DNA from: Methanomicrobiales archaeon
GTDB taxonomy: Archaea > Halobacteriota > Methanomicrobia > Methanomicrobiales > JACTUA01
Assembly (NCBI GenBank): GCA_015660865.1
Contig: JACTUA010000001.1
Coordinates: 124,001-188,000, forward strand
Direction of reading: 5' to 3'
DNA: 64,000 nucleotides
In this document: in pieces, positions 23,147 to 52,092 of the stretch
How the letters are laid out: each line of letters starts with the position of its first letter
How positions within the stretch are numbered: position 1 is the first letter of the stretch
Translations under genes and position numbers: made by a program
The notes under the pieces: model-generated
The model's database searches: none
Seen by the model: the letters and a program-made list of their open reading frames with translations, nothing else
Told to the model about the DNA's origin: nothing

Positions 23147-23156
23147 GATACAAGGT

Positions 23157-27734: not shown

Positions 27735-27787
27735 CCAGCAAAAATATTAATCTCACTCGCTATAAGCATCCAGATTGGAGAGTAACA

Positions 27788-27994: not shown

Positions 27995-28021
27995 AATTCG
28001 AACTTTCATACGCCATCTCAG

Positions 28022-28111: not shown

Positions 28112-28120
28112 CAGGAGACC

Positions 28121-29472: not shown

Positions 29473-29733
29473 CCCGCGGGATCTCTCCCGGCACAGGCAT
29501 GCTCGCGGGCACTCTCCCGCTGGATGATGCCCGTCAGGAATAACGAATGAAGGGAAATACCCTGCCGATCCTTCCCGGAAGAGGCAGAAACCCCTGGTTC
29601 CGGGAAATGGCCCCACGACTGACCTCGCGGGCCGTTCATGCCCGATACCGGGCCCCTTTCTCACATACTACCGGAATACGGGGTGATCCGTGTGAGAAAA
29701 AGGTGCCAGTAAAGATTTAAACCAATTTTTCCG
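29473..29733. other. Gap before the giant TPR gene
   Basis: About 260 bases hold no supported gene. A short inverted pair (gggcc about 29630, ggccc about 29655) could form a weak hairpin after the dioxygenase gene. TATA-like TTTAAA lies near 29717. Confidence 0.4.
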
Positions 29734-29801
29734 ATATATATAAAGAGACATTTTGCCCGGGCCGATACAGATAGGGAACCCGATTCAGCTGGAGTGAGGG
29801 A
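29734..29801 (+). promoter_or_regulatory. Promoter and ribosome site of the giant TPR gene
   Basis: ATATATATAAAG (29734-29745) is a strong TATA box about 60 nt before the ATG. A start near 29770 would leave a leader of about 30 nt that holds GGAGTGAGG (29791-29799) right before ATG 29802. Both signals are as good as in any highly used gene of the window, so the giant ORF is probably expressed. Confidence 0.65.
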
Positions 29802-32800
29802 ATGGAAGGGCCGCGCGAGAGGAAGATAGGCGGGAAGACAGCCGAGGAATGGCGCGATCTGGGATACCATGAGAAGGATCCCGAGAAGAGGGTGAGGTAC
29901 TACTCCTTCGCCCTCCAGATCGACCCGCGAAACCTCCATGCATGGTACCAGCAGGGCCTCGCCCTCCAGCGGCTGGGGAGGCTGAAGGAGGCCGCCGCCT
30001 CCTTCGGGAAGGTCCTCGAGATGGACGAGAAGCACACGGGCGCCTGGTTCTCCCTCGGGCAGGTCCAGAAGGACCAGAAGAAGTTCGAGGAGGCGGTCGG
30101 GACATTCGACCACCTCCTCGGTATCGATCCAGGGCACTCCGATGCCCTGTACTCGAAGGGCCTCGCCCTCCTCTCGCTCAAGCGACCCGACTCTGCCCTC
30201 GAGACATTCGACCGTCTCCTCGGTATCGATCCCGGACATGCCAATGCATGGTACGCGAGAAGCATCGCCCTCATCGACCTCGACAGGCCCGCTGACGCCC
30301 TCGAAGCTCTGGACCATGCCCTCGAGTTCGAGCCCCGCCATTCCGGCGCATGGCATGCAAAGGGCCTCGCCCTTATCGACCTCGACAGGCCCGCTGACGC
30401 CCTCGAAGCTCTGGACCATGCCCTCGAGTTCGAGCCCCGCCATTCCGGCGCATGGCACGCAAAAGGCCTCGCACTCATGGAGATGAAGCGCTATGCCCCG
30501 GCCCTCGGTGCATTCGACCATGCCATCGAGATCGACCCCCGGAACGCGGCTGCCTTCTACTCACGGGGCCTCGTCCTCATGGAGATGAAGCGTTATCCCC
30601 TGGCCCTCGAGGCTTTTGACCAGGCCCTCGGGATCGACCCGCTCCATGCCGGCGCCTGGCACTCGAAGGGCCTCGCCCTCATCGACCTCGAGCGGTTCGG
30701 CGATGCCCTCGAGGCCCTGGACCGGACCCTCGAGATCGACCCGCGGCAGGCAGGCGCCTGGTACTCGAAGGGGCTCGCCCTCATGGAGCTCGAGAGGTTC
30801 GCAGAGACCGTAAAAGCCCTTGACAGCGCCCTGGAGCTCGAACCTGACCATGCCCGGGCCTGGTACACCCGGGGGCTGGCCCTCGCCGAGATCGGCAAGA
30901 ACGAGGAGGCGGTGGCGTCCCTCTCAAAGGTCCTCGCCGTGGAGGCGGAGGACCCCAACACCCTGGGCATCAAGGGGCTCGCCCTCAAGGCCATGGGGAG
31001 GTACGGGGAGGCGGTGGAGATGCTCGACCGGTCCCTCGAAGGCGATCCCCAGAACGCCAACGGGTGGTATAACCGCGGCCTCTGCCTGAGGGAGCTCGGC
31101 CGGTACAGGGATGCGGTCGAGTCCTTCGACCGGACCCTCGCCATCGAGAAGAACCTGGGCGTGATCTGGTACAACCGCGGGCTCGCACTGATCGAACTCC
31201 AGGATTTCGCGCCCGCCGTCGAGTCCTTTGACCGGAGCCTCGCCCTGGAGGGGGAACACTTCGGATCCTGGTACCGGCGGGGGCTCGCACTCGTCGGCCT
31301 GGACCGGTTCAAGGAGGCGGTGGAGTCCTTTGACCACGCCGTCGCCCTCGAACCGGGGCTCTCCATGGCCTGGTTCCACCGGGGCCTCTCCCTCGCCGAG
31401 ATCGGGCGGACCCAGGATGCCATCAAGGACCTGGACCATACGCTGTCCATCGACCCGAGCCATGCCCGGGCATGGTTCCAGAAGGGCACCCTCCTCCACC
31501 ACCAGGGGAGGAGGGAGGAGGCGCTGGCCTGCCTCGAGAAGTCGACCCGGTTCGATGCTGCAAGCCGCGACGCCTGGTTCGGAAAAGGGCTCCTCCTCCT
31601 GGAACTCGAACGGTTCGGGGAGGCGGAGAAGGCCCTCCAGCGCGCCCTGGAGCTGGACCCGCTCTTCGGTGAAGCATGGTACCGGCGGGGGGTTGCCCTG
31701 GTCAGGCTGGACCGGCTTGACGATGCGGTGACTGCCCTCGGGGAGAGCACCCGGATCACCCCGGAACGGGCGGAAGCCTGGTTCGACCGGGGCAGTGCCC
31801 TCCTCACCCTCGGCAGGAACAGGGAAGCGGCGGAGGCCCTCGGCCATGCCGCGGAACGGGATCCGAAGAACGCGCTCGGGCACTACCGGCTCGGCCTCGC
31901 GTTTGCCGGGCTCGGGCGGAACGAGGAGGCCGAGAAGGCATTCGGGCGGGCCACCGAGCTGGATCCATCCTTTGCCGAGGCCTGGTCCCGGAGGGGACGG
32001 GCGCTCGCAGACCTCGGGAGGTTTGAGGATGCAGCGACCACCCTCTCCCGTTCCCTGGACCTGAACCCGAGGGACGGACTGGCATGGTTCTCCCTCGCCC
32101 GCGTCCAGGAGGGGCTGGGGAGACGGGAGCTCGCCGTCCAGTCCCTCGAAAAGGGGATAGGGATCGATCCATCGCAGCCATCCTCCTGGTACCAGAAAGG
32201 CCTCCTCCTCTATGACCTGGGGCGGTTCGAGGAGGCGAAGCGATCCCTCGACCAGGCCCTCCAGCTCGAACCCGGCCGTGCTGAGTACTGGTTCTGCCAT
32301 GGCATCACCCTCCTTGCACTCGGGATGCCGAAGGAGGCAGCGGTCTCCATCCAGCGGGCCCTGGAGATCGACCCCTCGAACCCGGAGGGATGGCTCCAGC
32401 TCGCGAGGGCCAGAGAAGAGGACGGCGATCCCGCCGGTGCCGTGGACGCGCTCAAAAGTTCTACCGCCCGGAAGGCCGATACCCCCGGGGCATGGCTCAG
32501 GCTCGGGGAGCTGGAGCTCGGGCTCGGGAGGGCCGGGGACGCCCTTGCCTCGGGAGACCAGGCTGTGGCACGGGATCCCTCGCTCGTGGCGGGCTGGCTG
32601 CTCCGGGGACGCGCGCTCGCCGCCCTCCGGAAGCCCGGAGAGGCTCACGAATCCCTCGAACGCTCCCTCGCCCTCGAGCCCCGCCAGGGAGAGGCATGGT
32701 TCGAGGACGGCCTTGCCCTGGAGGAGCTCGGGAAACACAGGGAGGCGGTGGCTGCCTTTGAACGCGCCATCGGCATCAACCCGAAGGGGATCGGGGCCTG

Positions 32801-35800
32801 GTACGGGAAGGGCCGGTCCCTCCAGGCCCTGGGGAGGAGCAGGGAGTCCCTCCAGGCTCTCGAGAAGGGCCTTGCCATCGAGCCAAGGGGCCCGGAGGAC
32901 TGGTTCAGCAGGGGCCTGATCCTCGAGGACCTGGGGAGGTACCAGGATGAGATCCCGTCCCTGGAGAAGGCGCTGCGGTCGAACCCGAACCATGCGCAGG
33001 CCTGGTTCCACCGCGGGGTCGCCCTCTCCGCCCTGGGAAGGACGGAAGAAGCGGCAGAGGCGTTCCGCGAGACGCTCAGGATCGACCCGGAGGACGTGAG
33101 GGCCAGCTTCCAGCTCGGGTCCCTTGAGAAGGACCTGGGCCACTACGACAAGGCGGTGGAGGCCCTCGAACGGGCGACCCGGATGGCCCCCGCCGATGCA
33201 AAGGCCCACTACATCGCTGGCCTCGCCCAGAACGGGCAGGGGAACTACGAGGAGGCGGCCCGCGCCTTCCGGCGGTCCCTGGAGATCCAGCTCGACGACG
33301 CCCGGGTCTGGTACACCCTCGGGTGGACCCTCGTCAAGCTCGGGAGGTTCGACGAAGGGAGTGAGGCCTTCGAGCGGGCCACCACCCTCGACCCCGGGAA
33401 CTTCCAGGCATGGTACAACCGTGCGTCCTGCGAGAAGGAGCTCGGCCGGCATAACCAGGCGATCGCCTCCATAGAAAAGGCCCTCCAGATCGATCCACGC
33501 CACGATGGCGCATGGTTCCTGAAGGGGTTCTCCCAGAAGGAGCTCGGCCGATACGAAGATGCCGTGGCATCCTTCGAGCGCGCCGCCGGGATCAACGAGA
33601 TGAACGGCGTCGGGTGGTTCATGCTCGGGTGGACCCTCTCGAAGCTCGGGAGTTATGACCGTGCGGTCGAGGCCTTTGACCGGGCGATCCGCATCCACCC
33701 CGATGATGCAGGCGCCTACTATAACCGGGCCCTCGCCCTCGGGGCCCTCGGGAAGGAGAGGGAGGCCATGGAGGCCCTCGACGCGTCCCTGGAGAGAGAC
33801 CCGTCGTACGCGCCCGCCTGGTTCCAGCTGGGGGCGGCCCTCGCGGCCCAGGGGCTGCACGAGAGGGCGGTGGAGGCCTTCGGGACGGGGCTCGGCCTCG
33901 ATCCCGGAAACTCCCCCATCTGGTTCCGGGAGGGCCAGTCCCTCCTCGCCCTCGAGAAGGAGGAGCAGGCGGTCATCGCCTTCGAGAGGGCCATCGAGGT
34001 CAGCCCGGAGGATACCGAGAGCAGGTGCTACCTCGGCTTCGCCCTTGCGGCGGTAGGCAGGATGGAGGAGGCGGTCACAGCCTTCGACCGGGTGCTCGAG
34101 GCCGATCCGTCGCGCTTCCAGGCATGGTACCACCGCGGGCTCGCCCTCATGGAGCTCGGGCGGCACGAGGAGGCCCTCGGTTCCTTCACCCATGCCCTCG
34201 GGAAGAGACCCGAGGACCCCGGGTCCTGGTACCAGAAGGGGCTGGCCCTCGCGGCGCTCTCCCGGCACGGGGAGGCGATCGATTCCTTCAGGAAGGCCCT
34301 TGACCTCTCCCCCGATGATGCGAGCTCCTGGTACTACTCGGGCATCTCTCTCCTTGAGAAGGGGCAGGATGCAGAGGCCCTGGAGGCCTTCGATGTCTCC
34401 CTCTCCCTCGATCCTGGCGACATGCACGCCAGGTACAACCGCGGGATCTGCCTCTCCCGCCTGGGGAGAAACGAGGAGGCAGCCCGGGCATTCGAGGAGG
34501 TAACGAAGATCGACCCCCACCACCCCCATGCATGGTACCTGAAGGGCCTTGCCCTCAGGGACCTCGGGAGGCCGGAGAAGGCCCTCGTCTCCTTTGACCG
34601 GGCCCTGGAGATCGACCCCCAGTGCGCCCCCTGCTCCTATGCACGGGGCCTCATCCTCGAGGCCCAGCACCGGTTCAGCGAGGCTCTTTCGGCATATGAC
34701 CGGACCCTCGAGTCCAGTCCCGACGATGCAGAGGCCCATTTCCACCGTGGACTCACCCTCATCTCTCTCGAGCGGCCGGCCGAGGGGCTCCTCGCGTTCG
34801 AGAGGGCCACCGAGCTCGCCCCCCGGAACTTCGCGGCCTGGATCCAGCGGGGCCTCGCCCTTGCCCGGTCCGACCGTTTCGGGGAGGCGGCCGATGCCTT
34901 TGAGACGGCGACCCGGATCAACCCGGACGACAAGGCGGCCTGGTACGAGAAGGGCCTCGCCTATTCATCTCTCGGAGATCACCATGAGGCCCTGGCAGCG
35001 CTCGACCGCGCCCTGGAGCTGGACCCCGAGAATGCGGATGCATGGTTCCGGAGGGCGCTCTCCCTCTCGGCCCTCGGGGATCATGCGGGAGCCATCGGTG
35101 CCCTGGACCGGACCCTTGCCCTCAACCCCGGAGACGGGGAGGCCTGGCACCGAAAAGGGCTCGCCCTGCGGACACTCGGGAGAGAGGAGGACGCCCTCGA
35201 GGCCATCTCCCATTCTGTGGAGATGGACCCCGAGAACCAGGAGGCATGGTTCCACCTGGGGGAGGTGCAGAGGGACCTCGGGAGGGACGGGGAGGCAGTG
35301 GAGTCCTTCGGGACGGTCGTCTCGCTGAATCCGGAGCACCGGGATGCCTGGTTCATGACGGGACTCGTCCGGGAGGTCACCGGGGATATTGAGGGTGCCC
35401 TCTCTGCATTCACCCGCTGCGTGGACCTGGATGGCCGTCACGCGGACAGTCACTACCACCGGGGCCTCATCCTCGTTGCCCTCAAGAGACCCGAGGCCGC
35501 CATCGATGCCTTCGATGCCGTGCTCGATATCGACCCGTCCCGGAAGGATGCATGGTTCCAGGAGGGCCTGATCCTCGAACAGTTCGGGGAGTACGAGGAG
35601 GCACTCTCTGCCCTCGATACCTCCCTCACGCTCGATCCGCACCAGCCCGAGGCATGGTTCCACATCGCACGGTGCCATGCAGGCATGGGGAAGCCGCGGG
35701 AGGCCATCGAGGCCTCCGACCAGGCCACAATGCTCGATCCCCGACATGCAGGGGCCCTGACCCAGAGAGGCCTCTCCGAGGAGGTACTCGGGGAATGGGA

Positions 35801-38800
35801 GCCCGCCCTCCAGTCCTTCGGGAGGAGCCTCGGGGTCGACCCGGCCCAGCCGGTGGCCTGGCATCACCGCGGCTCGGTCCTCCTCTCCCTGGGGAGGTTT
35901 GCAGAGGCGGTGGATGCGCTGGACCGATCCCTTGCCCTTGCACCCGCGAACGCGGAGGCCCTCTACCGGAAAGGCCTCGCCTGCCTCGGGATGGGCACCC
36001 GGGAAGAAGCGGCAGAGGCCCTCGCTGCGAGCCTGGATCTCGAACCGGGGAATGCGGATGCATGGTTCAGGAGAGGTGTCGCCCTTTCGGCCCTCGGGAG
36101 GCACAGGGACGCGGTCCAGGACCTCGATCGCTCTCTCTCCCTGGATCCGGCGAACCCGGACGGTTGGCTCGAGAAGGGGCTCTCCCTGCAGGCCCTCGGG
36201 GATCTCCCGGGGGCGATGGCAGCCTTCAAGGCCTCCATCGACGCGGATCCCTCCCGGGCCCGGGCCTGGTTGCAGCTCGGGGTTGCCGGGCGTCTCTCGA
36301 ACAGGATGGGGGAGGCACTCTCTTCCCTGGATCGGGCGGTGAAGATCGATCCGGGAGACCCCGAGGGATGGTTTGAGCGGGGCCTGGTCCTCCTGGAGCT
36401 GGTGAGGACCGACGAAGGGATCTCCTCCTTCGAGCAGGCCCTTGAACTCCAGCCCGACCATGCCGGTTCCCTGCTCAGCCGCGGCCTGGCCCTGGCAATG
36501 GTCGGTAAGTTCGGGGACGCGCTCGATTCCATAGAGAAGGCGCTCCCCGGAAAAGAGGAGGATCCCGACGCATGGTTCCAGCATGGGTTCCTCCTCCACC
36601 GCCTCGGGAGGGACGAGGAGGCGGTCACCTCCCTCGACCGCTCCATCGCCCTCGATCCCGGACGGACCCTCTCCTGGTTCCACCGTGGAGAGGCCCTCGA
36701 ACAGCTCGGCCGGTATGCCCCGGCCCTCGAATCCTTCGAGCGTGCGGTGCGTCTTGAGCCCCAGCTCACGGAAGGATTCTACCATCTCGGCCTCTGCCGG
36801 GAACGGCTGGGAGACCATGCAGGAGCGGAGGAGTCCTTCTCCCGGGTCCTCGAGAAGGAGCCCAGGAACCCCTCTGCCCTCTTCCACCGGGGCCTCGCCC
36901 TCATAAAGACCCGGAAGTACCTCGAGGCGGCCACCTCCCTGGAGAAGGCCCTTGCCCTCGAACCGTCGGCGGACGCCTGGTATCAGCTCGGGATCACAAG
37001 GGAGCGGCTCGGGAAGTTCGGCGAGGCGGTCGATGCCCTGGACCGGGCCATCGCCCTGGACCCGGACCATGGCATGGCATGGTGCGTCCGCGGGGTTGCC
37101 ATGGCGAGGGGAGGGGATCAGCCGGGCGCGATCGGGTCATTCGAGCGGTCGGTTGCCCTCTCGCCCGAGAACGGGCGTGCATGGTACGAGATGGGCTACT
37201 CCTTCCAGATGCTCGGGCGGCTCCCCGAGGCGAGGGACGCCCTGGAGAGGGCAATCGGGCTCTCTTACAGCGGTCCACCGGTCCTCCTCCGGCACGGCCT
37301 GGTCCTCGAGGACCTGGGGGACCGCACCGGCGCTTCCCGCTCCTTTGCTCAGGCGGTGGAGCTGGACCCGGGCTCGGGGGAGGCCTGGTTCCACCTCGGC
37401 CTCGCCCAGCTCGCCCTCAGGCTGTTCGAGGAGGCGGTGGAGTCCTTCGGGAGAGCGGTGAAGATCCAGGGAAAGTCGAGCCGTTCCTGGTTCCACCTCG
37501 GTCAGGCTTACCAGGAGCTGGGGAAGTTCGAGGATGCCCTCGCCCCCCTCAAGGAGGCCATCCGCCTCGAGCCCGACAATGCGGAGGCCAGGTACCTCGA
37601 GGGCCTTGCCCTCTACCGGCTGGACCGGTTCAAGAAGGCAGCCGTATCGCTGGAGAAGGCGACCAAACTCGCCCCGACCCATCCACAGGCCTGGTACTAC
37701 CTGGGGCTCACCCGTGCAGCGCTGGACGAGGAGAACGAAGCCGCCAGGTCATTTGCCCGGGTGACGGAGCTCGACCCCTCTTTCGGGCCCGCCTGGCACC
37801 GGCTGGGCATTGCAGAGCGCAGGCTCGGCCAGAGCCAGAAGGCGCTCGATGCCCTGGACGAGGCCCTCGCCCTCGATCCCTCCCTCGCAGAGGGCTGGGT
37901 GGAGAAGGGGCTCGCCCTCGAGGATCTCGGCAGGCACGAGGACGCGGTTCCGGCCTTTGGGAGGGCCATGGAGCTCGACCCGAAGAACGCCGCTGCATGG
38001 TTCCACCAGGGCTCGAACCTCCAGGCGGCAGGGAGGCACCAGGAGGCGGTCCAGGTCCTCGGGCACGCCATTGACCTTGAGAAGGAGAATCCACGGACCT
38101 GGGCCCTCCTGGGCGAGGCCCGGATCTCCCTCGGAGAATATCCCCAGGCGGAAGATGCCTTTGCCCGGGCCATCGCCCTCTCGGATAAGGACCCACGCGC
38201 CTTCTTCCACCACGGGCTCGCCCTGGAGCACCTTGAGCGCTACGCCGAGGCGGCAGGATCCTTCGGGAAGGCCTGCATGATCTCACCGGAGGATCCCCTC
38301 TCCTGGTGCCATCGGGGCTTTGCCCTCGAGCACCTCGGGAGGTTTCCCGAGGCAGAGGAGGCCTACCAAAAGGCAGTCTCCCTGGATCCGGGGAACGGGC
38401 CGGCATGGTTCCATCTCGGGAACGTATATCTCGAGCTCGGGAAGGCGGACGGGGCCCGCGACGCCCTGGAGCACTTCATCACCATCACACCCGGGCACGG
38501 GGAGGGGTACTACCGGCTGGGGGTCGCCCTGGAGGAGATGGGGTTCTTTGCGCGGGCCGAGGAGGCTTACCTCCAGGCCATCGCCCGGGGCAGGGCGGAA
38601 CCGCGGGTCTGGTTCCGGACAGGCATGGTGAGAGAGCGGCTCTGGAACCTGGACGGGGCGGTCGAGGCGTACATGAAGGCACTGGAAGGCGACCCCCGCG
38701 ACACCCAGGTCTGGTTCCAGCTGGGGAGGTGCGAGGCGGCACGCGGGCACCCGGATGAGTCACTCTCGGCCTTTGACAGGGTTCTCGAGATCGCCCCCGG

Positions 38801-41800: not shown

Positions 41801-44800
41801 GCTCGGAGGGAACGACGAGGCTCTTGTCTGCCTGGACCGCGCCCTCCAGATCAGCCCCGAGTACCACCCCGCCTGGTTCCTCAAAGGCGAGGTCCTCTCT
41901 CTCCAGAAACGCTTCAATGAGGCGGTCGAGGCGTACAGCCGTGTCCTCGCCCACGAGGACGGGGAGCCCCGGGCCTGGCTCAGGAAGGGGCTTGCCCTTC
42001 GGGAGCTCGGGGACGACGACGGGGCTGCCCAGGCCCTGGAGCGCTACCTCCTCATCGAGCCCGGTTCCGCCGAGGCCTGGTACGAGAAAGGGCTCTCCCT
42101 GGAGAGGAAGGGGAAATACGCCACGGCGGCAGAGGCCTTCGGAAAGGCCCTCGAGATCGAGCCGGGAAGGGTGGATGCATGGTACCAGAAGGGCCTCTCC
42201 CTGGCCGGGCTCGGGAACTACGATGAGGGGATCCTCGCGTTCCAGGAGGGGCTCAGGCTCGAACCCGGGAACGCCATGGCCTGGTACAGCCTGGGCCTCG
42301 CCCAGGAGCAGATGAAACGCTTCGTAAAAGCGATGGACTCCTTTGCCCGGGCGCTCCAGATCCAGCCCAGGAACCTGCCTGCCTGGTACCACCGCGGGAT
42401 CTGCGAGGAGGAGGGGGGGTTCTCGAGCGACGCGGTCTTCTCCTTTGAAAAAGCCCTCGAGATCGATCCCAGGGACGTGGATTCCTGGTACCACAAGGGC
42501 ATCTGCCTGGCGAAGGCCGGAAGGCACCAGGATGCGGTCAGCGCCTTCGGGAACGCCCTCCTCCATGACCCCGAGAACCCGCAGGCCTGGTTCCACCAGG
42601 GCCTCTCCCTCCTCGAGACAGGGGAGCATGCAGCGGCGGTCGCTTCCTTTGACCGGGCGCTGGGCCTCGACAACCGGAACCCGATAGTCTGGTACGAGAA
42701 GGGGGTCGCCCTCCAGAGCCTCGGGCGGGGCAAGGAGGCCCTGGAGGCTTTCGGGAGATCCCTTGACCTTGACCCGGAGAGAAAGGAGGCCTGGAAGCAC
42801 CGGGGTTCCATCCTCTTCGAGGAGCGATCACTCGATGCAGCCCTCGAGGCCTTCGACCGTGTGCTCCAGATCGATTCCAAGGACGCCGGCTCCTGGTACA
42901 ACCGCGGCTGTATCCTCGGCGACCTCGGGGATGCCGAGGGTGCGGTGGGCTCCTTCGACCGCGCCCTTGCCATCGAACCGGGAAACTCCCGGGCCTGGAA
43001 CAACAAGGGCGCCATCCTCTTCCAGCTCGAGCGGAACGCGGAGGCGGTCGATGCCTTCGACCACTCCCTCGAGATCGACGGGAAGAACGCCGGGACATGG
43101 TTCAACCGGGGGCTCGTGGAGATGGAGCTCGGGGAGGACGAGGCGGCCATCGGGTCCTTTTCCCGGACCCTCGACCTGGACCCGGGGAACGCGGAGGCAT
43201 GGTTCCAGAAGGGGAAGGGGCTTGAGCGCACCGGGAGACCCGCAGAGGCCGTGGAGGCCGTGGACGAGGCGCTCAGGAGGCTGCCAAACCATGGCCCGTC
43301 CTGGTTCGTGCGCGGCCTGGCCCTGGAACGGCTCCAGCGGTTCGACGAGGCGGTGAATGCCTTTGACCGGTCCCTCGCCGCCGACCCTGACAACCCCGAG
43401 GCCCTCTACCACCAGGGGCTCGCTCTCCATGCCCTGGGCATGCACCACGAGGCCGTGGAGGTCTTCACCCGTGCAGCCGAGCTGGACCCGAAATCGGCGG
43501 GGATCTGGTACCACGAGGGCCTTGCGCTCCATACCCTGGGGAGGCTCCCGGAGGCGATCGCCGCCTTTGACCGGTCCCTCGCGATCCAGCCCGGTGCGCC
43601 GGACGCATGGTATTACCGGGGCATCGCCCTCTCTGCCCTCAGGCGGCATGGCGAGGCCCTGGAGGCCTTCGAGAAGGGCCTTCTCATCCAGGGAAGGGAC
43701 GGGAGGCTCTGGCACGGGAAGGGGGTGTCCCTCGCGGAGCTGGGCAGGAACGAGGAGGCAGCCCAGGCCCTGGGGGTCGCGGTGGAGATCGATCCCGCCG
43801 ACGAGCGGGGCTGGTTCACCCTGGGGGTCTCCCTCCACCGCCTCGAACGGTACGCGGATTCCATCCCGGCCTTCGAGCGGGCCGTTGCCCTGGACCCGGC
43901 GAACCTTGAGGCATGGCTCCTCCTGGGCTTCGATCTCCATGAAGTGGGGCGGAATGAGGAGGCTGCCGGTGCAGCCGACGGTGCACGGAAGACCGATCCC
44001 GGGAACCCGAGGGCATGGACGCTCCTCGGGATCGCCCAGAAGGACCTCGGCAGGTACGGGGAGGCCCTGGAGTCCCTGAACCATGTCATCGCCCTTTCGC
44101 CGAACGATCCCGAGGCCTGGTTCGAGAAGGGCCTCGTCGAGGAGCGGCTCGGGAGGGAGCAGGACGCCGTCGCTTCTCTCGCGAAGTCCCTCGAGCTGGA
44201 GCCCTCCCACCCGGGAGCGCTCTTCGAGAGCGGGAGGATCCTGTCCCGTGCAGGATCTCACCCCGAGGCCATAGAGTACTTCAGGAGGCTGGTCCGGCTC
44301 GACCCCGCCAACGGGGAGGCGTGGTACTGGCTGGGAATGAGCCTCTCCCTGGTCGGGGATGAGGACGAGGCGCTGGAGGCTTTCGAGAAGACCCTGAAGC
44401 GCGATCCCAATCATGGGCCGGCCTGGTACAACAAGGGGTGCATCCTGAACAGCCTCGGCCGCCTCGAAGAGGCCGTGGCCGCCTTTGACCGGGCGCTCTC
44501 CATCGACCCGGATGATGCCCAGGCCTGGAACAACAAGGGGGGGACCCTCCTCGGGCTCGGGCGCTCTGCCGAGGCTGCCGAAGCATTCCGGCATGTTCTC
44601 GCCACGACCCCGGGCTATGGTCCGGCCTGGTACAACCTCGGCCTCGCCGAGATGGAGCTCGGGCACTATGCCCTGGCCGCCGAGGCCTTCGAGAAGGCCC
44701 TGGATATCGATCCTGCCCTTGCCGAGGGGTGGTACCAGAGGGGGGTATCCCACGAGAAGCTCGGGCAACACGCCGAGGCCGTCGCCTGCTACGACAGGGC

Positions 44801-47800
44801 CATCGCCCTCTCCCCCGATGACAGTCCGGCATGGTTCCGGAGGGGTGTCTCACTCGCAGCGCTCGGGAAAGGGAGCGATGCCCTCGAGTCCCTGGAGCGG
44901 GCGGTCGAGCTCGACCCCGGGGACCCGGAGGCCTGGTTCCAGATGGGCCTCGTCTTCATGGGTGGGAAGACCTATGACCGGGCCCTCGATTCCTTCACCC
45001 AGGCCCTCGAGCTCCAGCTGGAGGACGGGAGGATCTGGTTCGAGAGCGGCCTTGCCCTCGAGGGGCTGGAGCACCGGGAGGATGCCATCGAGGCGTTCCG
45101 GAGGGCCGTGGAGTTCGACCCGGGCAATATCGAGGCATGGTACCACCGGGGCCTCATGGAGGCAAGGCTCGACCGGCCCCGGGATGCCATCGAGTCCTTT
45201 GACCAGGTCATCGCCCGGGACGAGGGGCATGCCGCATCCCACTACCGGAAGGGACTGGCCCTGCTCGCCCTCGGGGAGCCCGGCGGTGCCGTCCCAGCCC
45301 TCTCGCGGGCCATCGAGCTCGATCCCCGGAATACCGATGCCCGGAACCGGAAAGGGATCGCCCTGGCAGCGAGCGGGAGATACGAGGAGGCCATCTCCGC
45401 CTTCGATGAGGTCCTCTCCCTTGACCCGTCCCACGGGCCGGCGTGGCTCGGGAAGGGGACCACCCTCTCCCACCTGGGGAGATACGAGGGGGCGGTGGCG
45501 GCCTTTGACCGGGCCATCGACCTGGAACCCCTGAGCGTTCCTGTCCACCTCTCGCTGGGAAGAGCCCTCATGAGCCTCGGGCGCCATGAAGGGGCGGTGA
45601 GGGCCTTCGAGCGGGGGCTCCTCATCAGCCCTGACCATGCCGGCCTCTGGATGCTCAAGGGGACCTGCGAGAAGGAGCTCGGGAGGTTCGCCGATGCTGC
45701 TGCCTCCTTCGGCGAGGCCATCGGGATCGAGCCCGGGAACCCCGAGCCATGGTTCCACCTGGGCATCACCCTTGAGAAGGCAGGCAGGCCCGAGGATGCC
45801 CTCAACGCCCTGGAAGGGTTCCTGACCCTGATCCCGGAGAGCCAGGAAGCCTGGATGAAGACCGGGGATCTCCTCACCGGCCTGGGCCGCCATCCCGAGG
45901 CGGTGGAGGCGTTCGGGAAAGCGACCGGCCTCCCCCCCGAGAGTGCCACCGCATGGTCCCGGTACGGGGAGGCCCTCCTGGCCGTCTCTCGGTTCGGGGA
46001 CGCCGCGGAGGCCTACGAGAGGTCCCTCTCTCTCGATCCGGGCGATGCCCGCGCATGGTTCCACCGCGGGCTCGCCCTGGCCGGGAGCGGGGATGACAGC
46101 GGAGCGGTAGAGGCCTTCTCCCGCTCCCTTGGGCTCGACGGGAAGCAGGCCAACGCCTGGAACAGCAGGGGGAGGAGCCTCGTGCGGCTGGGCAGGACCG
46201 GGGAGGCGATCGAGGCGTTTGCCCGCGCCCTCGAGCTCGACCCTGGCCTCACTGACGCCCGCCAGGGCGAGGGTATGGCCCTCCACGCCCTCGGGAGAAA
46301 CGGGGAGGCCGAGACAGCCCTCGGGGAGGTTCTCAGCCGTGAACCCGGGAATTCCGCCGCATGGCGGGAACTCTCCCTTGTGAAGAAGGCCCTCCGGAAA
46401 CTCCCCGATGCCATGGCGGCCATCGACAGGGCCCTTGAGATCGACCCGAAAAGCGCTTCTGCCTGGGCCGAGAAGGGCGCCCTCGAGGAGACCCTCGGCG
46501 AGAACGCCCGTGCGGTTGAGGCCTTCAGGACCGCCCTCTCCCTCAGTCCCGATGACCCACTGCTCTGGTCCGGCCTTGGGAGGGCTGAGCTCTCCCTCCA
46601 GCATCACCGCGAGGCTGCCGAGGCCTTCGGCGAGAGCCTGCAACGTTCTCCCGAGGACGCCTTTACCTGGTTCCACTTCGGAGAGGTGCTCCTCCTCCTC
46701 GAGCACCTCGAGGATGCCTACGATGCCTTCAGGAAGAGCGCCGATATCCGGCCGGACCAGGCCAGAGCCTGGCACTATCAGGGGCTCGTTCTCACGCGGC
46801 TTGTACGGATGAACGAGGCAATCGAGGCCTTCGATCGCGCCCTGGAGCTGGACCCGCAGGATGCCGGGTCCTGGTATGCGCGGGGTATCGCCCTCTATGA
46901 CCTCGGGAGGTACGAGGAATCGATCGAATCCTTCGAGAGGACGCTTGCCATTCGCGGGGAGATGGGAGAGGCATGGTTCCGGATGGGGCTCTCCCACGAG
47001 GCCCTGTCGGATCATGGTGGGGCCGAGAAGGCATTTGCCCGCGTGACCGAGCTCTCGCCCGGGAACGGGGATGCCGCCTATCACCGCGCCGTCGCCCTCA
47101 TGGCCCTGGGGAAGGAGAGCGAGGCCCTCGGGAGCCTTGAGCAGGCACTGGAGATCGATCCCGACCATGCGGATGCCTGGTTCCGGAAGGGGCTCGTCCT
47201 CGCAGGAATGGGCAGGAAGGAGGAGGCGATCCCGGCCTTTGACTCCGTTCTCCGCATATCCCCCGAGCATGCCGGCGCATGGTTCCAGAAGGGGCTCGCC
47301 CTGGAGTCCGTCGGGAAGAGGGAGGAGGCCTCGGGATGCTATGAGACGGCGGTCAGGTTCGATCCAAATCACGGGCAGGGGTGGCTGCATCGTGGCCGGA
47401 TGCTCATCTCCCTTGGCAGGCTTGAAGAGGGCCTCGCGGCCCTCGATCATGCCCTTGCCATCGATCCAGGGAACGGGGATGCCCTCATCTCCCGGGCGGA
47501 TGCTCTCGCCGATCTCGAAAGACCCGACGAAGCCCTGGAAACGTTCGACCGGGCTCTCGAGAAGAGCCCCCGGAACCTGGAGGCATACCTCAGGAAGGGG
47601 AAGCTCCTCCTCTCCCTCTCCCGCACCGAGGAGGCCCTCGGGGCCTTCCTCCTCGCTATCGAGGCGGACGAGGCGAACGCCGGAGCATGGTACCAGAAGG
47701 GGGCCGTCCTCGTAGGGATGGGGCGCTTAGATGAGGCGGTGGAGGCGTACGGCCGGTCGCTCGCCCTTTTCCCCGAGAACCCAGAAACCCTCATGAAGAG

Positions 47801-49934
47801 GGGGGTCGCCCTCCTCTCACTCGCGAGGATCCCCGAGGCGGTCTCCGACCTTGAGAAGGCGGCGGCGGCAGGGGGTGATGGAGCCATCTGGTTCAACCTG
47901 GGGCGAGCCCAGCTCCGGGCGGGGAAGTTTGAGGAAGCATCCTCCTCCCTGAGCCGGTCCCTGGCAATCGATCCAGGAAACCCGCTCACCTGGTGCCACC
48001 AGGGTGCCGCCCTGACCCATCTCGGCCGGCTGGAGGAATCCATCTCCTCCTTCGGCAGGGCTCTCGCCGGGGACGAGACCCTGGAGCCGGCATGGTTCCA
48101 CCTCGGGATCGCCCAAGAGGGTCTCGGACGGTATGAGGACGCGGTCGAGTCCTTCCGGCGGGCCCTCAAGATCGATGCCCGGAACGGCGACGCGTGGTAC
48201 CATGCAGGGGGGGCCCTCTACCATCTCGGCAGGACCGATGAAGCCCTGCGGGCCTTCGACCGTTCCACGAAGCTCAGCCCCCGGGACCCGAGGCCCTGGT
48301 ACAACCGGGGGTGCATCCTCTCCGAGCGGGGGGAGTTCGCACCCGCGGTCGAGGCCTTTGACCGGGCACTGGAGGCCGATCCCCGTTTCGCTGCGGCCCT
48401 GAACAACCGCGGGAGCGCCCTCTTCGAGCTCGGCAGGTACAGGGAGGCAGAGTCCTCCTTTGAGCGGTCCCTTGAGATCGAGCCTGGCAACCCCTCAACC
48501 TGGTACAATAGGGCCCTCATCCAGAAGCAGCTGGGGGCCAATGGCCCTGCCCTGGAATCCCTCCAGCACGTGCTCGATCTAGACCCTGGCCACACGGGCG
48601 CGCGGCACACCCAGGGACTCATCCTTCATGCCCTCGGGCGGAATGGGGAGGCGCTCGCTGCCTATGACCAGGCCATCGGCCTGGATCCCGCCCAGGGGCA
48701 GGTATGGTACGACCGGGGGGTCGTCCTGGAGGAGCTGGGCAGGCCTGGTGAAGCGATCCAGTCCTACGAGCGTGCCACAGGGATCGATCCCGGCGACGGC
48801 CGCGCCTGGCACCGCATGGGGTCGCTCCTCGGGTTGCAGGGCCGCCACGGGGACGCGACGGCCGCCCTTGAGAAGGCTCTCGGGATAGACCCATCGAACA
48901 CCGACGCGTGGTACCGGCTCGGGCTCACCCTGAGGAACCTTGGCAACGAGGAGGGGGCGATCACGGCTTTTGACCATGCCGTCCAGCTGGAGCCCCGCCA
49001 CCAGGGAGCCTGGTACAACCGCGGGCTCGCCCTCTTCTCCCTGGCCAGGTTCGTGGAGTCCATCACATCCTTTGAACGGGCCCTGGAGATCGACCCCGGG
49101 GATGCGGGTGCCTGGCATAACCGGGGATATGCCTACATGGCCATCAGGAGCCATACCGAGGCGCTCGCGTCCTTCGAGAAGGCTCTCGAGATTGACGACG
49201 GGAACCCCCTCTCCTGGACCTACCGGGGCCTCGCCCTCGGGATGCTCGGGAGGAAGGAGGAGGCCTTCATCTCCTACCAGAAGGCCCTCGAGAGGGATCC
49301 GGTGAACAAGATCGCGCTTTCGAACCAGGCCTGGGCATTCCATGGGGAGAAGAGGCTCGACGAGGCCCTCGCCGACTTTGAGAAGATCCTCGCAGCGGAT
49401 CCGGGGTACGCCCCCGCCTTGCTGGGGAAGGGCGCCGTCCTCGACGCGCAAGGAAAGGCGGAGGAGGCCCTCAGGGCCTATGACCGGGCGGTGGAGACCG
49501 GGCCAAGGGATGCCCAGGCATGGAACAGCAGGGGCGGGCTCCTCTACCGCATGGGCAGGATCCCGGAGGCGATCCATTCCTTCGAGACCGCCGTCGAGCT
49601 AGATCCCCTCCTTGCCGGCGCATGGTACAACCTTGCAGCGGTCAAGGGAGGCCAGGGCAGGCACGAGGAGGCCCTCATTGCGGTTGAGAAGGCCCTCCAG
49701 ATCAACCCGGACGATGCCCTTTCCTGGAACAACAAGGGAGGTACCCTCTTCCAGATGGGGAGAATCGAGGAGGCTCTCGCCTGTTTCGAAAGAGCCATCG
49801 TCCTCAACCCCGGATATGCCTCCCCGTGGATGAACAAGGGTTCCGCTCTCGTGAAGCTCAAGAGGAAACGGGAGGCGAAGGCGGCCTTCAAGAAGGCGAA
49901 GGAGCTTGATCCCTCTGTGGGGGAGCTCTCGTGA
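29802..49934 (+). CDS. Giant all-TPR protein, 6,710 residues
   Basis: One uninterrupted frame of 20.1 kb encodes tandem 34-residue tetratricopeptide units. Each reads roughly AW(Y/F)xKGLALxxLGR, then EEAVxAFDRALxLDPxN, keeping the TPR positions W4, L7, G8, Y/F11, A20, F24, A27 and P32. From the first unit Trp (residue 48) to the last (6676) is 6,628 residues, that is 195 x 34 minus 2. Two units that are one residue short are visible (LEPSADAWYQ near 36.97 kb; AAAAGGDGAIWF near 47.87 kb). That gives about 196 units. There is no signal peptide, membrane segment or enzymatic domain, so it should form a cytoplasmic superhelical scaffold. The last unit is basic (LVKLKRKREAKAAFKKAKEL). Codon use matches the host. 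Partners are unknown and the flanking genes are unrelated. Confidence 0.95.
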   Translation: MEGPRERKIGGKTAEEWRDLGYHEKDPEKRVRYYSFALQIDPRNLHAWYQQGLALQRLGRLKEAAASFGKVLEMDEKHTGAWFSLGQVQKDQKKFEEAVGTFDHLLGIDPGHSDALYSKGLALLSLKRPDSALETFDRLLGIDPGHANAWYARSIALIDLDRPADALEALDHALEFEPRHSGAWHAKGLALIDLDRPADALEALDHALEFEPRHSGAWHAKGLALMEMKRYAPALGAFDHAIEIDPRNAAAFYSRGLVLMEMKRYPLALEAFDQALGIDPLHAGAWHSKGLALIDLERFGDALEALDRTLEIDPRQAGAWYSKGLALMELERFAETVKALDSALELEPDHARAWYTRGLALAEIGKNEEAVASLSKVLAVEAEDPNTLGIKGLALKAMGRYGEAVEMLDRSLEGDPQNANGWYNRGLCLRELGRYRDAVESFDRTLAIEKNLGVIWYNRGLALIELQDFAPAVESFDRSLALEGEHFGSWYRRGLALVGLDRFKEAVESFDHAVALEPGLSMAWFHRGLSLAEIGRTQDAIKDLDHTLSIDPSHARAWFQKGTLLHHQGRREEALACLEKSTRFDAASRDAWFGKGLLLLELERFGEAEKALQRALELDPLFGEAWYRRGVALVRLDRLDDAVTALGESTRITPERAEAWFDRGSALLTLGRNREAAEALGHAAERDPKNALGHYRLGLAFAGLGRNEEAEKAFGRATELDPSFAEAWSRRGRALADLGRFEDAATTLSRSLDLNPRDGLAWFSLARVQEGLGRRELAVQSLEKGIGIDPSQPSSWYQKGLLLYDLGRFEEAKRSLDQALQLEPGRAEYWFCHGITLLALGMPKEAAVSIQRALEIDPSNPEGWLQLARAREEDGDPAGAVDALKSSTARKADTPGAWLRLGELELGLGRAGDALASGDQAVARDPSLVAGWLLRGRALAALRKPGEAHESLERSLALEPRQGEAWFEDGLALEELGKHREAVAAFERAIGINPKGIGAWYGKGRSLQALGRSRESLQALEKGLAIEPRGPEDWFSRGLILEDLGRYQDEIPSLEKALRSNPNHAQAWFHRGVALSALGRTEEAAEAFRETLRIDPEDVRASFQLGSLEKDLGHYDKAVEALERATRMAPADAKAHYIAGLAQNGQGNYEEAARAFRRSLEIQLDDARVWYTLGWTLVKLGRFDEGSEAFERATTLDPGNFQAWYNRASCEKELGRHNQAIASIEKALQIDPRHDGAWFLKGFSQKELGRYEDAVASFERAAGINEMNGVGWFMLGWTLSKLGSYDRAVEAFDRAIRIHPDDAGAYYNRALALGALGKEREAMEALDASLERDPSYAPAWFQLGAALAAQGLHERAVEAFGTGLGLDPGNSPIWFREGQSLLALEKEEQAVIAFERAIEVSPEDTESRCYLGFALAAVGRMEEAVTAFDRVLEADPSRFQAWYHRGLALMELGRHEEALGSFTHALGKRPEDPGSWYQKGLALAALSRHGEAIDSFRKALDLSPDDASSWYYSGISLLEKGQDAEALEAFDVSLSLDPGDMHARYNRGICLSRLGRNEEAARAFEEVTKIDPHHPHAWYLKGLALRDLGRPEKALVSFDRALEIDPQCAPCSYARGLILEAQHRFSEALSAYDRTLESSPDDAEAHFHRGLTLISLERPAEGLLAFERATELAPRNFAAWIQRGLALARSDRFGEAADAFETATRINPDDKAAWYEKGLAYSSLGDHHEALAALDRALELDPENADAWFRRALSLSALGDHAGAIGALDRTLALNPGDGEAWHRKGLALRTLGREEDALEAISHSVEMDPENQEAWFHLGEVQRDLGRDGEAVESFGTVVSLNPEHRDAWFMTGLVREVTGDIEGALSAFTRCVDLDGRHADSHYHRGLILVALKRPEAAIDAFDAVLDIDPSRKDAWFQEGLILEQFGEYEEALSALDTSLTLDPHQPEAWFHIARCHAGMGKPREAIEASDQATMLDPRHAGALTQRGLSEEVLGEWEPALQSFGRSLGVDPAQPVAWHHRGSVLLSLGRFAEAVDALDRSLALAPANAEALYRKGLACLGMGTREEAAEALAASLDLEPGNADAWFRRGVALSALGRHRDAVQDLDRSLSLDPANPDGWLEKGLSLQALGDLPGAMAAFKASIDADPSRARAWLQLGVAGRLSNRMGEALSSLDRAVKIDPGDPEGWFERGLVLLELVRTDEGISSFEQALELQPDHAGSLLSRGLALAMVGKFGDALDSIEKALPGKEEDPDAWFQHGFLLHRLGRDEEAVTSLDRSIALDPGRTLSWFHRGEALEQLGRYAPALESFERAVRLEPQLTEGFYHLGLCRERLGDHAGAEESFSRVLEKEPRNPSALFHRGLALIKTRKYLEAATSLEKALALEPSADAWYQLGITRERLGKFGEAVDALDRAIALDPDHGMAWCVRGVAMARGGDQPGAIGSFERSVALSPENGRAWYEMGYSFQMLGRLPEARDALERAIGLSYSGPPVLLRHGLVLEDLGDRTGASRSFAQAVELDPGSGEAWFHLGLAQLALRLFEEAVESFGRAVKIQGKSSRSWFHLGQAYQELGKFEDALAPLKEAIRLEPDNAEARYLEGLALYRLDRFKKAAVSLEKATKLAPTHPQAWYYLGLTRAALDEENEAARSFARVTELDPSFGPAWHRLGIAERRLGQSQKALDALDEALALDPSLAEGWVEKGLALEDLGRHEDAVPAFGRAMELDPKNAAAWFHQGSNLQAAGRHQEAVQVLGHAIDLEKENPRTWALLGEARISLGEYPQAEDAFARAIALSDKDPRAFFHHGLALEHLERYAEAAGSFGKACMISPEDPLSWCHRGFALEHLGRFPEAEEAYQKAVSLDPGNGPAWFHLGNVYLELGKADGARDALEHFITITPGHGEGYYRLGVALEEMGFFARAEEAYLQAIARGRAEPRVWFRTGMVRERLWNLDGAVEAYMKALEGDPRDTQVWFQLGRCEAARGHPDESLSAFDRVLEIAPGDISALVARAETLTLAERFADGLAVSRKVIERDPSQAMAWFLKGRCLSGLGRHGEAVEALERAIELNPDHAPSWHHLGLAHEAMGFLGDAADAFWRAGQIAPDEAVSWFHLGSDLIQLSRWREALEALRRATARKPGDSQAWHATGIALRGLGRGGEAVDAFERALSLEPERPVTLAALGQTFMLLERFGDASRVLAQAVSLAPDDPDTWFRKGISEERTGKFAEAVESFDEALARDPSNPSISFHRGLTLQHSGDLAGALEAFDHVLSLDREDKETWFHKGEILRRLGRSEESLSALEKNLGMEPENPMAWFEKGLAEKELGRQGDAVASLKRALALSPQHGPSWCALGLTLMEEGLTEKAIETLARAVVFDPALARAWYYLGVCSVELRRFRDAADAFGNCLALDPGNSNAWYYHGFVENRLRRHRKAAESLDHALAIDPGNTKALLEKGRAQMEGLQYGEALETLDRLIALEPENGEAWYRKGAIMALLGIHEEAIDHLATALRFEPSCQPALLQAALSYLELGRHSEALDSLERTITLNPSDPRPWFYRGVILERMSRHPEAAVAYDEVIRLRPGDLLAREQKAQILLTLGKFEETLAAADEGIRMDPQNAGFHTVRGLALLQLKRTGEAEEAFARALEREPLRAGAWYHRGIALMDLGRNEEAADAFRETLLLEPANILAFFYAGIAYERLGNHEKAVKSLEEGLLLDPSNARAWLTRGIAEKELGRYGPALSSLEKACDLDPGNAEAWYEKGVALQLLGREEETLASLDTAITLRPGDTGSWNLKGSILRHLGRHEESVEAFRKVLEGEPHSTQAWFQLGEALYELGRYGEAADATEKALELDPALTRAWFTRGMAFNRLGRYGEAVEAFRKVVGQDRDHGLAWYNMGWAEREMRLYGEAVDAFDQAIRIESRDAGSWYNRGLALHEMGRFGDAVSSFDQVTAIEPGNAPAWFRKALALSSLGRDEEAADALDRMIQLDPENQEPWYRLGEIFLKLGGNDEALVCLDRALQISPEYHPAWFLKGEVLSLQKRFNEAVEAYSRVLAHEDGEPRAWLRKGLALRELGDDDGAAQALERYLLIEPGSAEAWYEKGLSLERKGKYATAAEAFGKALEIEPGRVDAWYQKGLSLAGLGNYDEGILAFQEGLRLEPGNAMAWYSLGLAQEQMKRFVKAMDSFARALQIQPRNLPAWYHRGICEEEGGFSSDAVFSFEKALEIDPRDVDSWYHKGICLAKAGRHQDAVSAFGNALLHDPENPQAWFHQGLSLLETGEHAAAVASFDRALGLDNRNPIVWYEKGVALQSLGRGKEALEAFGRSLDLDPERKEAWKHRGSILFEERSLDAALEAFDRVLQIDSKDAGSWYNRGCILGDLGDAEGAVGSFDRALAIEPGNSRAWNNKGAILFQLERNAEAVDAFDHSLEIDGKNAGTWFNRGLVEMELGEDEAAIGSFSRTLDLDPGNAEAWFQKGKGLERTGRPAEAVEAVDEALRRLPNHGPSWFVRGLALERLQRFDEAVNAFDRSLAADPDNPEALYHQGLALHALGMHHEAVEVFTRAAELDPKSAGIWYHEGLALHTLGRLPEAIAAFDRSLAIQPGAPDAWYYRGIALSALRRHGEALEAFEKGLLIQGRDGRLWHGKGVSLAELGRNEEAAQALGVAVEIDPADERGWFTLGVSLHRLERYADSIPAFERAVALDPANLEAWLLLGFDLHEVGRNEEAAGAADGARKTDPGNPRAWTLLGIAQKDLGRYGEALESLNHVIALSPNDPEAWFEKGLVEERLGREQDAVASLAKSLELEPSHPGALFESGRILSRAGSHPEAIEYFRRLVRLDPANGEAWYWLGMSLSLVGDEDEALEAFEKTLKRDPNHGPAWYNKGCILNSLGRLEEAVAAFDRALSIDPDDAQAWNNKGGTLLGLGRSAEAAEAFRHVLATTPGYGPAWYNLGLAEMELGHYALAAEAFEKALDIDPALAEGWYQRGVSHEKLGQHAEAVACYDRAIALSPDDSPAWFRRGVSLAALGKGSDALESLERAVELDPGDPEAWFQMGLVFMGGKTYDRALDSFTQALELQLEDGRIWFESGLALEGLEHREDAIEAFRRAVEFDPGNIEAWYHRGLMEARLDRPRDAIESFDQVIARDEGHAASHYRKGLALLALGEPGGAVPALSRAIELDPRNTDARNRKGIALAASGRYEEAISAFDEVLSLDPSHGPAWLGKGTTLSHLGRYEGAVAAFDRAIDLEPLSVPVHLSLGRALMSLGRHEGAVRAFERGLLISPDHAGLWMLKGTCEKELGRFADAAASFGEAIGIEPGNPEPWFHLGITLEKAGRPEDALNALEGFLTLIPESQEAWMKTGDLLTGLGRHPEAVEAFGKATGLPPESATAWSRYGEALLAVSRFGDAAEAYERSLSLDPGDARAWFHRGLALAGSGDDSGAVEAFSRSLGLDGKQANAWNSRGRSLVRLGRTGEAIEAFARALELDPGLTDARQGEGMALHALGRNGEAETALGEVLSREPGNSAAWRELSLVKKALRKLPDAMAAIDRALEIDPKSASAWAEKGALEETLGENARAVEAFRTALSLSPDDPLLWSGLGRAELSLQHHREAAEAFGESLQRSPEDAFTWFHFGEVLLLLEHLEDAYDAFRKSADIRPDQARAWHYQGLVLTRLVRMNEAIEAFDRALELDPQDAGSWYARGIALYDLGRYEESIESFERTLAIRGEMGEAWFRMGLSHEALSDHGGAEKAFARVTELSPGNGDAAYHRAVALMALGKESEALGSLEQALEIDPDHADAWFRKGLVLAGMGRKEEAIPAFDSVLRISPEHAGAWFQKGLALESVGKREEASGCYETAVRFDPNHGQGWLHRGRMLISLGRLEEGLAALDHALAIDPGNGDALISRADALADLERPDEALETFDRALEKSPRNLEAYLRKGKLLLSLSRTEEALGAFLLAIEADEANAGAWYQKGAVLVGMGRLDEAVEAYGRSLALFPENPETLMKRGVALLSLARIPEAVSDLEKAAAAGGDGAIWFNLGRAQLRAGKFEEASSSLSRSLAIDPGNPLTWCHQGAALTHLGRLEESISSFGRALAGDETLEPAWFHLGIAQEGLGRYEDAVESFRRALKIDARNGDAWYHAGGALYHLGRTDEALRAFDRSTKLSPRDPRPWYNRGCILSERGEFAPAVEAFDRALEADPRFAAALNNRGSALFELGRYREAESSFERSLEIEPGNPSTWYNRALIQKQLGANGPALESLQHVLDLDPGHTGARHTQGLILHALGRNGEALAAYDQAIGLDPAQGQVWYDRGVVLEELGRPGEAIQSYERATGIDPGDGRAWHRMGSLLGLQGRHGDATAALEKALGIDPSNTDAWYRLGLTLRNLGNEEGAITAFDHAVQLEPRHQGAWYNRGLALFSLARFVESITSFERALEIDPGDAGAWHNRGYAYMAIRSHTEALASFEKALEIDDGNPLSWTYRGLALGMLGRKEEAFISYQKALERDPVNKIALSNQAWAFHGEKRLDEALADFEKILAADPGYAPALLGKGAVLDAQGKAEEALRAYDRAVETGPRDAQAWNSRGGLLYRMGRIPEAIHSFETAVELDPLLAGAWYNLAAVKGGQGRHEEALIAVEKALQINPDDALSWNNKGGTLFQMGRIEEALACFERAIVLNPGYASPWMNKGSALVKLKRKREAKAAFKKAKELDPSVGELS
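30273..30476 (+). repeat. Near-identical tandem duplication of one TPR unit
   Basis: The 102-bp unit starting ATCGACCTCGACAGG at 30273 is repeated at 30375. The first 83 bases (30273-30355 and 30375-30457) are identical, with only a few differences after that. Most other units of the gene differ clearly from each other, so this pair is a recent expansion by exactly one 34-codon unit, without loss of frame. Confidence 0.93.
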
Positions 49935-50023
49935 AGCTCAACGGAAAGCGGAAACAGAGGGCGGCTTTCAAGAAGGCGAAGGAACTCGATCCCGCCACGG
50001 GTGAGCCCGATGGGACGCGGTGA
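49845..50023 (+). repeat. Tandem duplication of the 3' end of the TPR gene, second copy out of frame
   Basis: An 81-bp stretch coding for ALVKLKRKREAKAAFKKAKE and LDPSVGE (from 49845) is followed from 49925 by a copy coding for ALVKLNGKRKQRAAFKKAKE and LDPATGE. They differ at about 17 of 81 positions. The copies share one base, so the period is 80, not 81, and the frame shifts. This creates the present stop (TCG TGA, 49932-49934). The second copy then stays open to a TGA at 50021-50023, overlapping the start of the next gene. It is a frameshifted remnant of a longer C-terminus. Confidence 0.85.
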
Positions 50024-50762
50024 CCCCGGGAAAGGCCGGGGGAAGAAGGAAGGTGACGGGGGCTCTCCCGGGCCCCTTCGCCGGCCGTACATCATCGTGA
50101 ACATGGCCATGAGCGCCGACGGGAAGATCTCGTCTGTCGGGAGGAGGCAGGTGAGGATCAGCGGGGCAGAAGACCGCGGGCGGGTCGATACCATCAAGGC
50201 AGGGAGCGATGCCGTGATGGTCGGGATAGGAACGGTCCTTGCCGATAACCCGTCCCTCACCGTGAAGTCCGGGGATCTCCGCAGGGAGCGGGTCCTTGCA
50301 GGGAAGGCGGAGAACCCGGCGAGAATTGTCGTCGACAGCCAGGGCAGGACGCCCCTCACCGCAGATATCCTCCACAAGGGGGACGGCGAGCGGATCATTG
50401 CCGTCTCACAGAGAGCAGGCGGGGATGCCCCCGAACGGTTCCGTGGCCTCGCCACGGTCCTCATTGAAGGCGAGGAGGAGGTGGACCTGCCCCTGCTCAT
50501 GGCCCGGCTTCATGACCTGGGGATCGGGAGGCTCATGGTGGAGGGCGGGGGGAGCCTCATCGCATCCCTCTTTTCCCACGGGCTCGTGGACGAGTTCTTC
50601 ACCTTCATCGGGAACCTCATCATCGGGGGGAAGGACGCCCCCACACCCGTGGACGGCAGGGGCTTTTTGAATGACAACGAATTTGTGCGGCTGAGTCTCA
50701 TGGATGTGAGAGAGGTTGGGGAAGGAGTGCTCCTGCGGTGGCGGGTGAAAAATCGCCGGTAA
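50010..50762 (+). CDS. RibD-like reductase (2,5-diamino-6-ribosylamino-pyrimidinone 5'-phosphate reductase type)
   Basis: This 250-residue protein has the RibD C-terminal / DHFR-like pattern: IIVNMAMSADGKISSVGRRQ, VDTIKAGSDAVMVGIGTVLADNP, then PARIVVDSQGRTPL and LMVEGGGSLIASLFSHGLVD. Archaeal members reduce the ribosyl-pyrimidine intermediate of riboflavin and deazaflavin (F420) synthesis with NAD(P)H. The length fits a stand-alone reductase with a 25-residue extra N-terminus. ATG 50010 is chosen because GGTGA lies six bases upstream; GTG 50001 is in frame too. It begins inside the frameshifted tail of the TPR gene and overlaps the membrane-protein gene downstream. Confidence 0.9.
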   Translation: MGRGDPGKGRGKKEGDGGSPGPLRRPYIIVNMAMSADGKISSVGRRQVRISGAEDRGRVDTIKAGSDAVMVGIGTVLADNPSLTVKSGDLRRERVLAGKAENPARIVVDSQGRTPLTADILHKGDGERIIAVSQRAGGDAPERFRGLATVLIEGEEEVDLPLLMARLHDLGIGRLMVEGGGSLIASLFSHGLVDEFFTFIGNLIIGGKDAPTPVDGRGFLNDNEFVRLSLMDVREVGEGVLLRWRVKNRR

Positions 50763-52027: not shown

Positions 52028-52092
52028 ATCGCCCTGGAAGGAGAGCTACCCGGCGGAGCGCTCCTGAGCGGGAAAAAGAGGATCCGGGTTAT

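Follow-up and report, generated by a model that had tools for sequence, protein, structure and literature searches.

Within the window, i.e. the whole stretch of 64,000 nucleotides that was analysed, which comes from a wetland methanogenic archaeon, the open reading frame at positions 29802-49934 of the plus strand encodes a giant protein built of TPR units only. The gene is real and its product is under selection. The protein probably forms a cytoplasmic superhelical rod and, on balance, most likely serves as a multivalent scaffold acting through its concave groove. It comprises 6,710 amino acids with a calculated mass of 737.6 kDa and a calculated pI of 5.1; the sole stop codon of the frame is the terminal one. 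Segmentation with a self-derived profile, which was refined by dynamic programming, yielded 196 contiguous TPR units at amino acids 46-6707 (29937..49922, plus strand), 194 of them with 34 and two with 33 residues (amino acids 2358-2390 and 5995-6027), an assignment also based on Pfam, the unit alignment and a model of 20 units. The distance between the tryptophan residues of unit 1 (amino acid 48) and the last unit (amino acid 6676) is 6,628 residues. This is exactly the value of 195 x 34 minus 2 given in the original prediction, which had also correctly described about 196 uninterrupted units in an open frame of 6,710 residues and two units short by one residue. Its statement that the pattern is kept in every unit is almost correct, but units 25, 87, 84 and 189 are weak (20-25 bits, compared to a median of 53). 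A count of 197 is also defensible, because amino acids ~12-45 form a further, degenerate unit N-terminal to the array. When amino acids 1-4500 and 4501-6710 were compared with Pfam, the best 25 matches listed were TPR or TPR-like models only, PF00515 reaching 2,207 and 1,273 bits, respectively; no non-TPR domain was found among them, as had been predicted. By its 34-residue helix-turn-helix units and the models PF00515, PF07719 and PF13432, the protein is a TPR alpha-solenoid.

The length of the open frame alone is weak evidence for a gene, because antisense ORFs in the same GC-rich DNA are as long as 1,346 amino acids. That the gene is real follows from the agreement of repeat pattern, codon usage and conservation of orthologs. 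The codon usage, for which a host-like pattern had been claimed, indeed correlates with that of eight host genes at r = 0.99, while an antisense ORF reached only 0.84, and the GC content at codon position 3 (84.5%) resembles that of neighbour genes. A good TATA box and a ribosome site had been claimed as well. By eye, an AT-rich, archaeal TATA-like promoter element (AAAGATTTAAACCAATTTTTC and CGATATATATAAAGAG; ~29711..29747, plus strand) was recognized ~55-90 bp upstream of the ATG, and a ribosome-binding site GGAGTGAGGG is located at 29791..29800 (plus strand). The first part of the AT-rich element is common to the ortholog of the related genome OWC_0083 (AAAGATTTAAACCAATTTTTC and AAGGATTTATAGCAATTTTTC, respectively). 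The N-terminal 45 amino acids (29802..29936, plus strand), comprising a short basic start and the degenerate TPR-like unit (GKTAEEWRDLGYHEKDPEKRVRYYSFALQIDPRN), are 69% identical to this positional ortholog. A DNA repeat search revealed recent unit duplications with a period of 102 bp at 30195..30884 (plus strand). Apart from an exact repeat of ~83 bp at 30273 and 30375, the 20-kb coding sequence has no long exact DNA repeat, and its units are strongly diverged at the DNA level. The same search detected an imperfect tandem duplication (~80 bp) of the gene end (49845..49993, plus strand). The stop codon sits in the second copy; behind it, part of the last unit remains in a different frame.

Upstream of the giant gene, metG (21125-23275) and two genes without a named family (23106-24077 and 23929-24996), all on the minus strand, constitute a flank common to the orthologs. 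The downstream flank (50001..58103, plus strand), which according to synteny comparison is common to the ortholog of OWC_0078, contains genes for a pyrimidine reductase (TIGR01508), a PMT_2-like membrane protein, a glutamate synthase-like protein and 2-oxoacid:ferredoxin oxidoreductase A and B. Judged by their sequences, the flanking genes are housekeeping genes that give no functional clue, and none of those examined was recognized as an adjoining functional partner. Directly 5′ of the giant gene, a LigB-type gene (28648-29472; NCBIfam 4,5-DOPA-extradiol-dioxygenase) is unusual company for a methanogen. A 625-aa protein (8638-10515) that combines a PIN domain with a T2SSE-like ATPase domain is conserved beside metG in relatives. 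Directly behind tRNA-Phe begins an AT-rich segment of ~3.0 kb (25095-28118, about 36% GC). The codon usage of an 837-aa ORF within it (25221-27734) is foreign (r = -0.07), and searches of Pfam, NCBIfam, PADLOC and PHROGs gave no match for this ORF. No direct repeat flanking the segment was found. It is absent in OWC_0070, a genome of the same genus, in whose contig ~20 bp separate the tRNA from the counterpart of window position 28119. A second AT-rich stretch (62001-64000, 38% GC) harbors two ORFs. One, of 343 aa and possibly cut by the window end, matches type IIG restriction-modification proteins in their C-terminal part (TaqI_C); the other, of 281 aa, has no family match.

The same locus is occupied in two relatives belonging to another genus of the same family. 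OWC_0083 (G006) contains the upstream flank with the metG cluster and the N-terminus of a window-type giant. In OWC_0078 (G007), the C-terminus is present together with the genes downstream of it (pyrimidine reductase, PMT-like, glutamate synthase-like, oxidoreductase). In the comparison with these partial orthologs, none of which is assembled at full length, units 1-37 of the window protein matched OWC_0083 at offset 0 and units 82-196 matched the 115 units of OWC_0078 at a single offset and in exact register (36.9% vs. 30.3% background); in neither case did any of 500 unit permutations perform better. A third piece, C181 of OWC_0078, fitted at offset 22, with 4 of 500 permutations exceeding it. 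The exact unit register across genera covers 152 sampled units. Members of this family (genera g1 and g4) have in common the position between metG cluster and pyrimidine reductase gene, the N-terminus and collinear units. Between the pieces of OWC_0083 and OWC_0078, one unit indel was detected and dN/dS was 0.23, indicating purifying selection on the array; for a Methanoregula pair (G185/G180), it was 0.13. In OWC_0070 (G001, 71% complete), the N-terminal, middle and C-terminal pieces had no match, the metG contig stopping before the locus. The giant frame was not found in G010 (99% complete) nor in G009 (98% complete, 70 contigs), in the latter also not within 10 kb beside the metG cluster.

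As findings that would speak against the giant protein, the original prediction had named a misassembled array shown by long reads, and stop codons in close relatives combined with proteomic absence. No in-frame stops exist in the OWC_0078 pieces (3,923 and 1,096 amino acids) or in OWC_0083 (1,336 amino acids before a single frameshift near the contig end, which is either real or an assembly error). An array that was lengthened or mis-joined by the assembler has to be considered, since repeats are generally risky and the window genome is a draft of nine contigs. Such an artefact is nevertheless very unlikely and its probability practically negligible, because the 20 kb contain one exact repeat of ~83 bp, the other units being too diverged to confuse an assembler, and because collinear arrays occur in independent assemblies; moreover, closed Methanoregula genomes hold similar giants. 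It is also conceivable that the array is loosely constrained, grown by slippage and recombination to a length without specific role, as TPR arrays expand readily and both families described here gain and lose units. This reading is already disfavoured and must be regarded as improbable in view of the exact register across genera, the dN/dS values of 0.13-0.23, the 20 kb without stops and the fact that giants have persisted in 36 Methanoregula-type genomes.

The latter genomes were identified by searching with the N-terminal sequence of the giant from G139. They represent 36 of the 108 genomes of family f6, which contains Methanoregula, and are confined to Methanoregula (g34) and its sister genus. 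Most of the frames are 3,000-5,400 amino acids long, and complete arrays, some from genomes closed as a single contig, comprise 111-158 units; most Methanoregula genomes seen hold such proteins. A strict query returned giant TPR frames in few genomes of the order and misses giants such as that of G157. For this reason, it is not claimed that the window protein is the longest anywhere. Like the window protein, the Methanoregula-type giants are TPR-only proteins of several thousand residues with one uninterrupted array, intact frames and purifying selection. By contrast, they have fewer units than the 196 of the window protein, are not collinear with it, change in length mostly by steps of eight units and have another neighbourhood and other termini. 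Their common N-terminus S-DAEALLRQGIELYDLGR and C-terminus W-DIG-ILDKIGKHEEAKICY-KA, as well as their gene position, are not those of the window protein. Comparison of the window protein with G139, G160 and G180 at the unit level revealed no diagonal (151, 432 and 310 of 500 permutations exceeded the observed fit). A single giant family across Methanomicrobiales was rejected on account of this result and the differing neighbourhoods. Because the termini differ and the diagonal is absent, the giant TPR-only proteins of Methanomicrobiales belong to two or more lineages. Thus, the large TPR solenoid of the original prediction was supported but is not singular, given the orthologs in OWC_0083 and OWC_0078 and the giants of Methanoregula.

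Further TPR proteins were noticed in these genomes. The Methanoregula genome G188 encodes a large TPR-only protein of yet another, third type (L042:1121-10216; 3,031 amino acids, 88 units), which is Trp-rich and has more homogeneous units, in addition to a giant of 4,637 amino acids. In G139, a gene convergent to the giant gene (L028:6813-7502) encodes a small TPR protein, both ends of which are hydrophobic and may be membrane anchors. It is kept in G171, G180 and G185 and may be a partner of the giant.

The 24 complete Methanoregula-type arrays contain 111 (three arrays), 119 (seven), 120 (two), 127 (four), 133 (one), 135 (three), 143 (two), 150 (one) or 158 (one) units. In pairwise unit alignments, 344 of the 563 indels, which are non-independent events, were exactly 8 units long, 49 had 16 and 13 had 24 units; indels of 7 and 15 units amounted to 100 together, mainly from two shared changes. 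Recent duplications with a lag of 8 were detected at units about 17, 38-44, 75, 82 and 90, and none was seen at another short lag. A lag-15 duplication occurred once, in three related arrays, and compensating 8-unit deletions are also present. In the superhelix of designed TPR proteins (CTPR), eight repeats make one turn, which is 7.2 nm long and 3.8 nm wide (PMC12060649). Either the two ends are kept in phase by selection, or an early 8-unit duplication has set a register for unequal recombination. An 8-unit rule was also sought in the window family and not found, recent length changes there being 1, 2 or 4 units.

The only literature found on giant TPR proteins in Methanomicrobiales is a study of a river-sediment proteome (PMC10384328). 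It reported a TPR protein of 516.17 kDa (A0A2I0PCX3) with 18 peptides, 14 of them unique, at an FDR of <= 1%; among the proteins of 'Methanomicrobiales archaeon' in the sediment, it was the best represented and the most abundant (PMC10384328). The calculated mass of Methanoregula-type proteins with 135 units is 514-519 kDa. A0A2I0PCX3, which is not the window protein, was assigned to this family by mass only; expression of the Methanoregula type is probable. Expression of the window gene is likely, as had been proposed.

For a 20-unit piece of the window protein, AlphaFold2 predicted 40 regular helices (pLDDT 95.5, pTM 0.65), two antiparallel helices per unit stacking as a superhelix. The best-superposing solved folds were CTPR superhelices (8chy with 1.3 Å rmsd over 268 columns, TMt 0.95), whereas the TPR superhelix of O-GlcNAc transferase (OGT) superposed less closely. 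CTPR8/16/20 (PDB 8chy, 9qhb, 2fo7) share the 34-residue unit and the superhelical geometry, but consist of 8-26 designed, identical repeats without natural function. OGT and SPINDLY (PDB 1w3b, 7y4i) also possess a long right-handed TPR superhelix, the concave groove of which binds peptide. However, their repeats number about 12 and are followed by a glycosyltransferase at the C-terminus, a domain for which the window protein, filled with TPR units up to amino acid 6707, leaves no space. MamA, YrrB and ordinary prokaryotic TPR proteins of 300-700 amino acids are TPR-only cytoplasmic adaptors or scaffolds like the proposed one, but with 5-20 units they are shorter than the window protein by a factor of about ten or more. 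In two Methanoregula-type pairs, unit-specific conservation was higher in the groove than on the other surface (0.38 vs. 0.23, p = 0.0003; 0.47 vs. 0.35, p = 0.01). The pair of window protein and OWC_0078, which is more diverged, had an excess in the same direction that was not significant (0.117 vs. 0.089, p = 0.18). Groove conservation, like the mainly whole-turn length changes and probable expression, was thus established for the Methanoregula family only.

At CTPR geometry, 196 units would make ~24.5 turns and a rod or spring of ~175 nm, a value which is an extrapolation because it applies the geometry of designed TPRs to the whole array. The concave groove of successive turns might bind extended segments of partner proteins, by which many copies or several partners would be held in line along the rod. 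Of the cytoplasmic scaffold originally suggested, the likely scaffold role was supported, while location and function are what we infer. No function is assigned to giant TPR-only proteins of methanogens in the literature found by full-text search, in line with the earlier statement. The main rival to the multivalent scaffold is a rather unlikely one, a mechanical or length-defining element (spring, ruler or filament), for which the turns and the relative angle of the ends would matter rather than many separate binding sites. The Methanoregula classes of 111, 119, 127, 135, 143 and of 150, 158 units, mostly following 8-unit steps, the 8-unit tandem duplications at several positions together with compensating deletions, the completion of a CTPR turn by eight repeats (PMC12060649) and the spring-like behaviour of TPR arrays (PMC8944806) are consistent with such an element. 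On the other hand, the classes 120, 133, 150 and 158 are out of strict 8-unit phase, the window family does not show the rule, and total length differs 1.4-fold among Methanoregula species, therefore there is no fixed ruler length. TPR proteins are also classic partners of Hsp70 and Hsp90, and grpE-dnaK-dnaJ lie ~1-5 kb from the giant gene in G139, G160, G180, G185 and G158, which could suggest that the giants serve the DnaK system as a co-chaperone platform. This link was rejected as quite improbable, since the adjacency is limited to some Methanoregula loci (the window genome has dnaK on a different contig, and its distance to the giant gene is large in G195 and G157) and since the DnaK C-termini of the window genome and its relatives are KVKDE- or VEDEK-like and lack the EEVD end of a carboxylate-clamp partner.

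More tentatively, giant TPR-only rods from at least two independent families of Methanomicrobiales might form a class of nano-scaffolds or nano-springs, of which the window protein is the longest found here and in which selection in Methanoregula might act on the whole turn of eight units. If they are true scaffolds or springs, these proteins would rank with the largest cytoplasmic proteins of a single fold that are known from archaea. With its closed genomes and cultured strains, Methanoregula is a suitable test ground. The steps of eight units are a natural experiment on whether the evolution of repeat proteins proceeds in whole turns of the superhelix, a question beyond the reach of designed TPR arrays alone.
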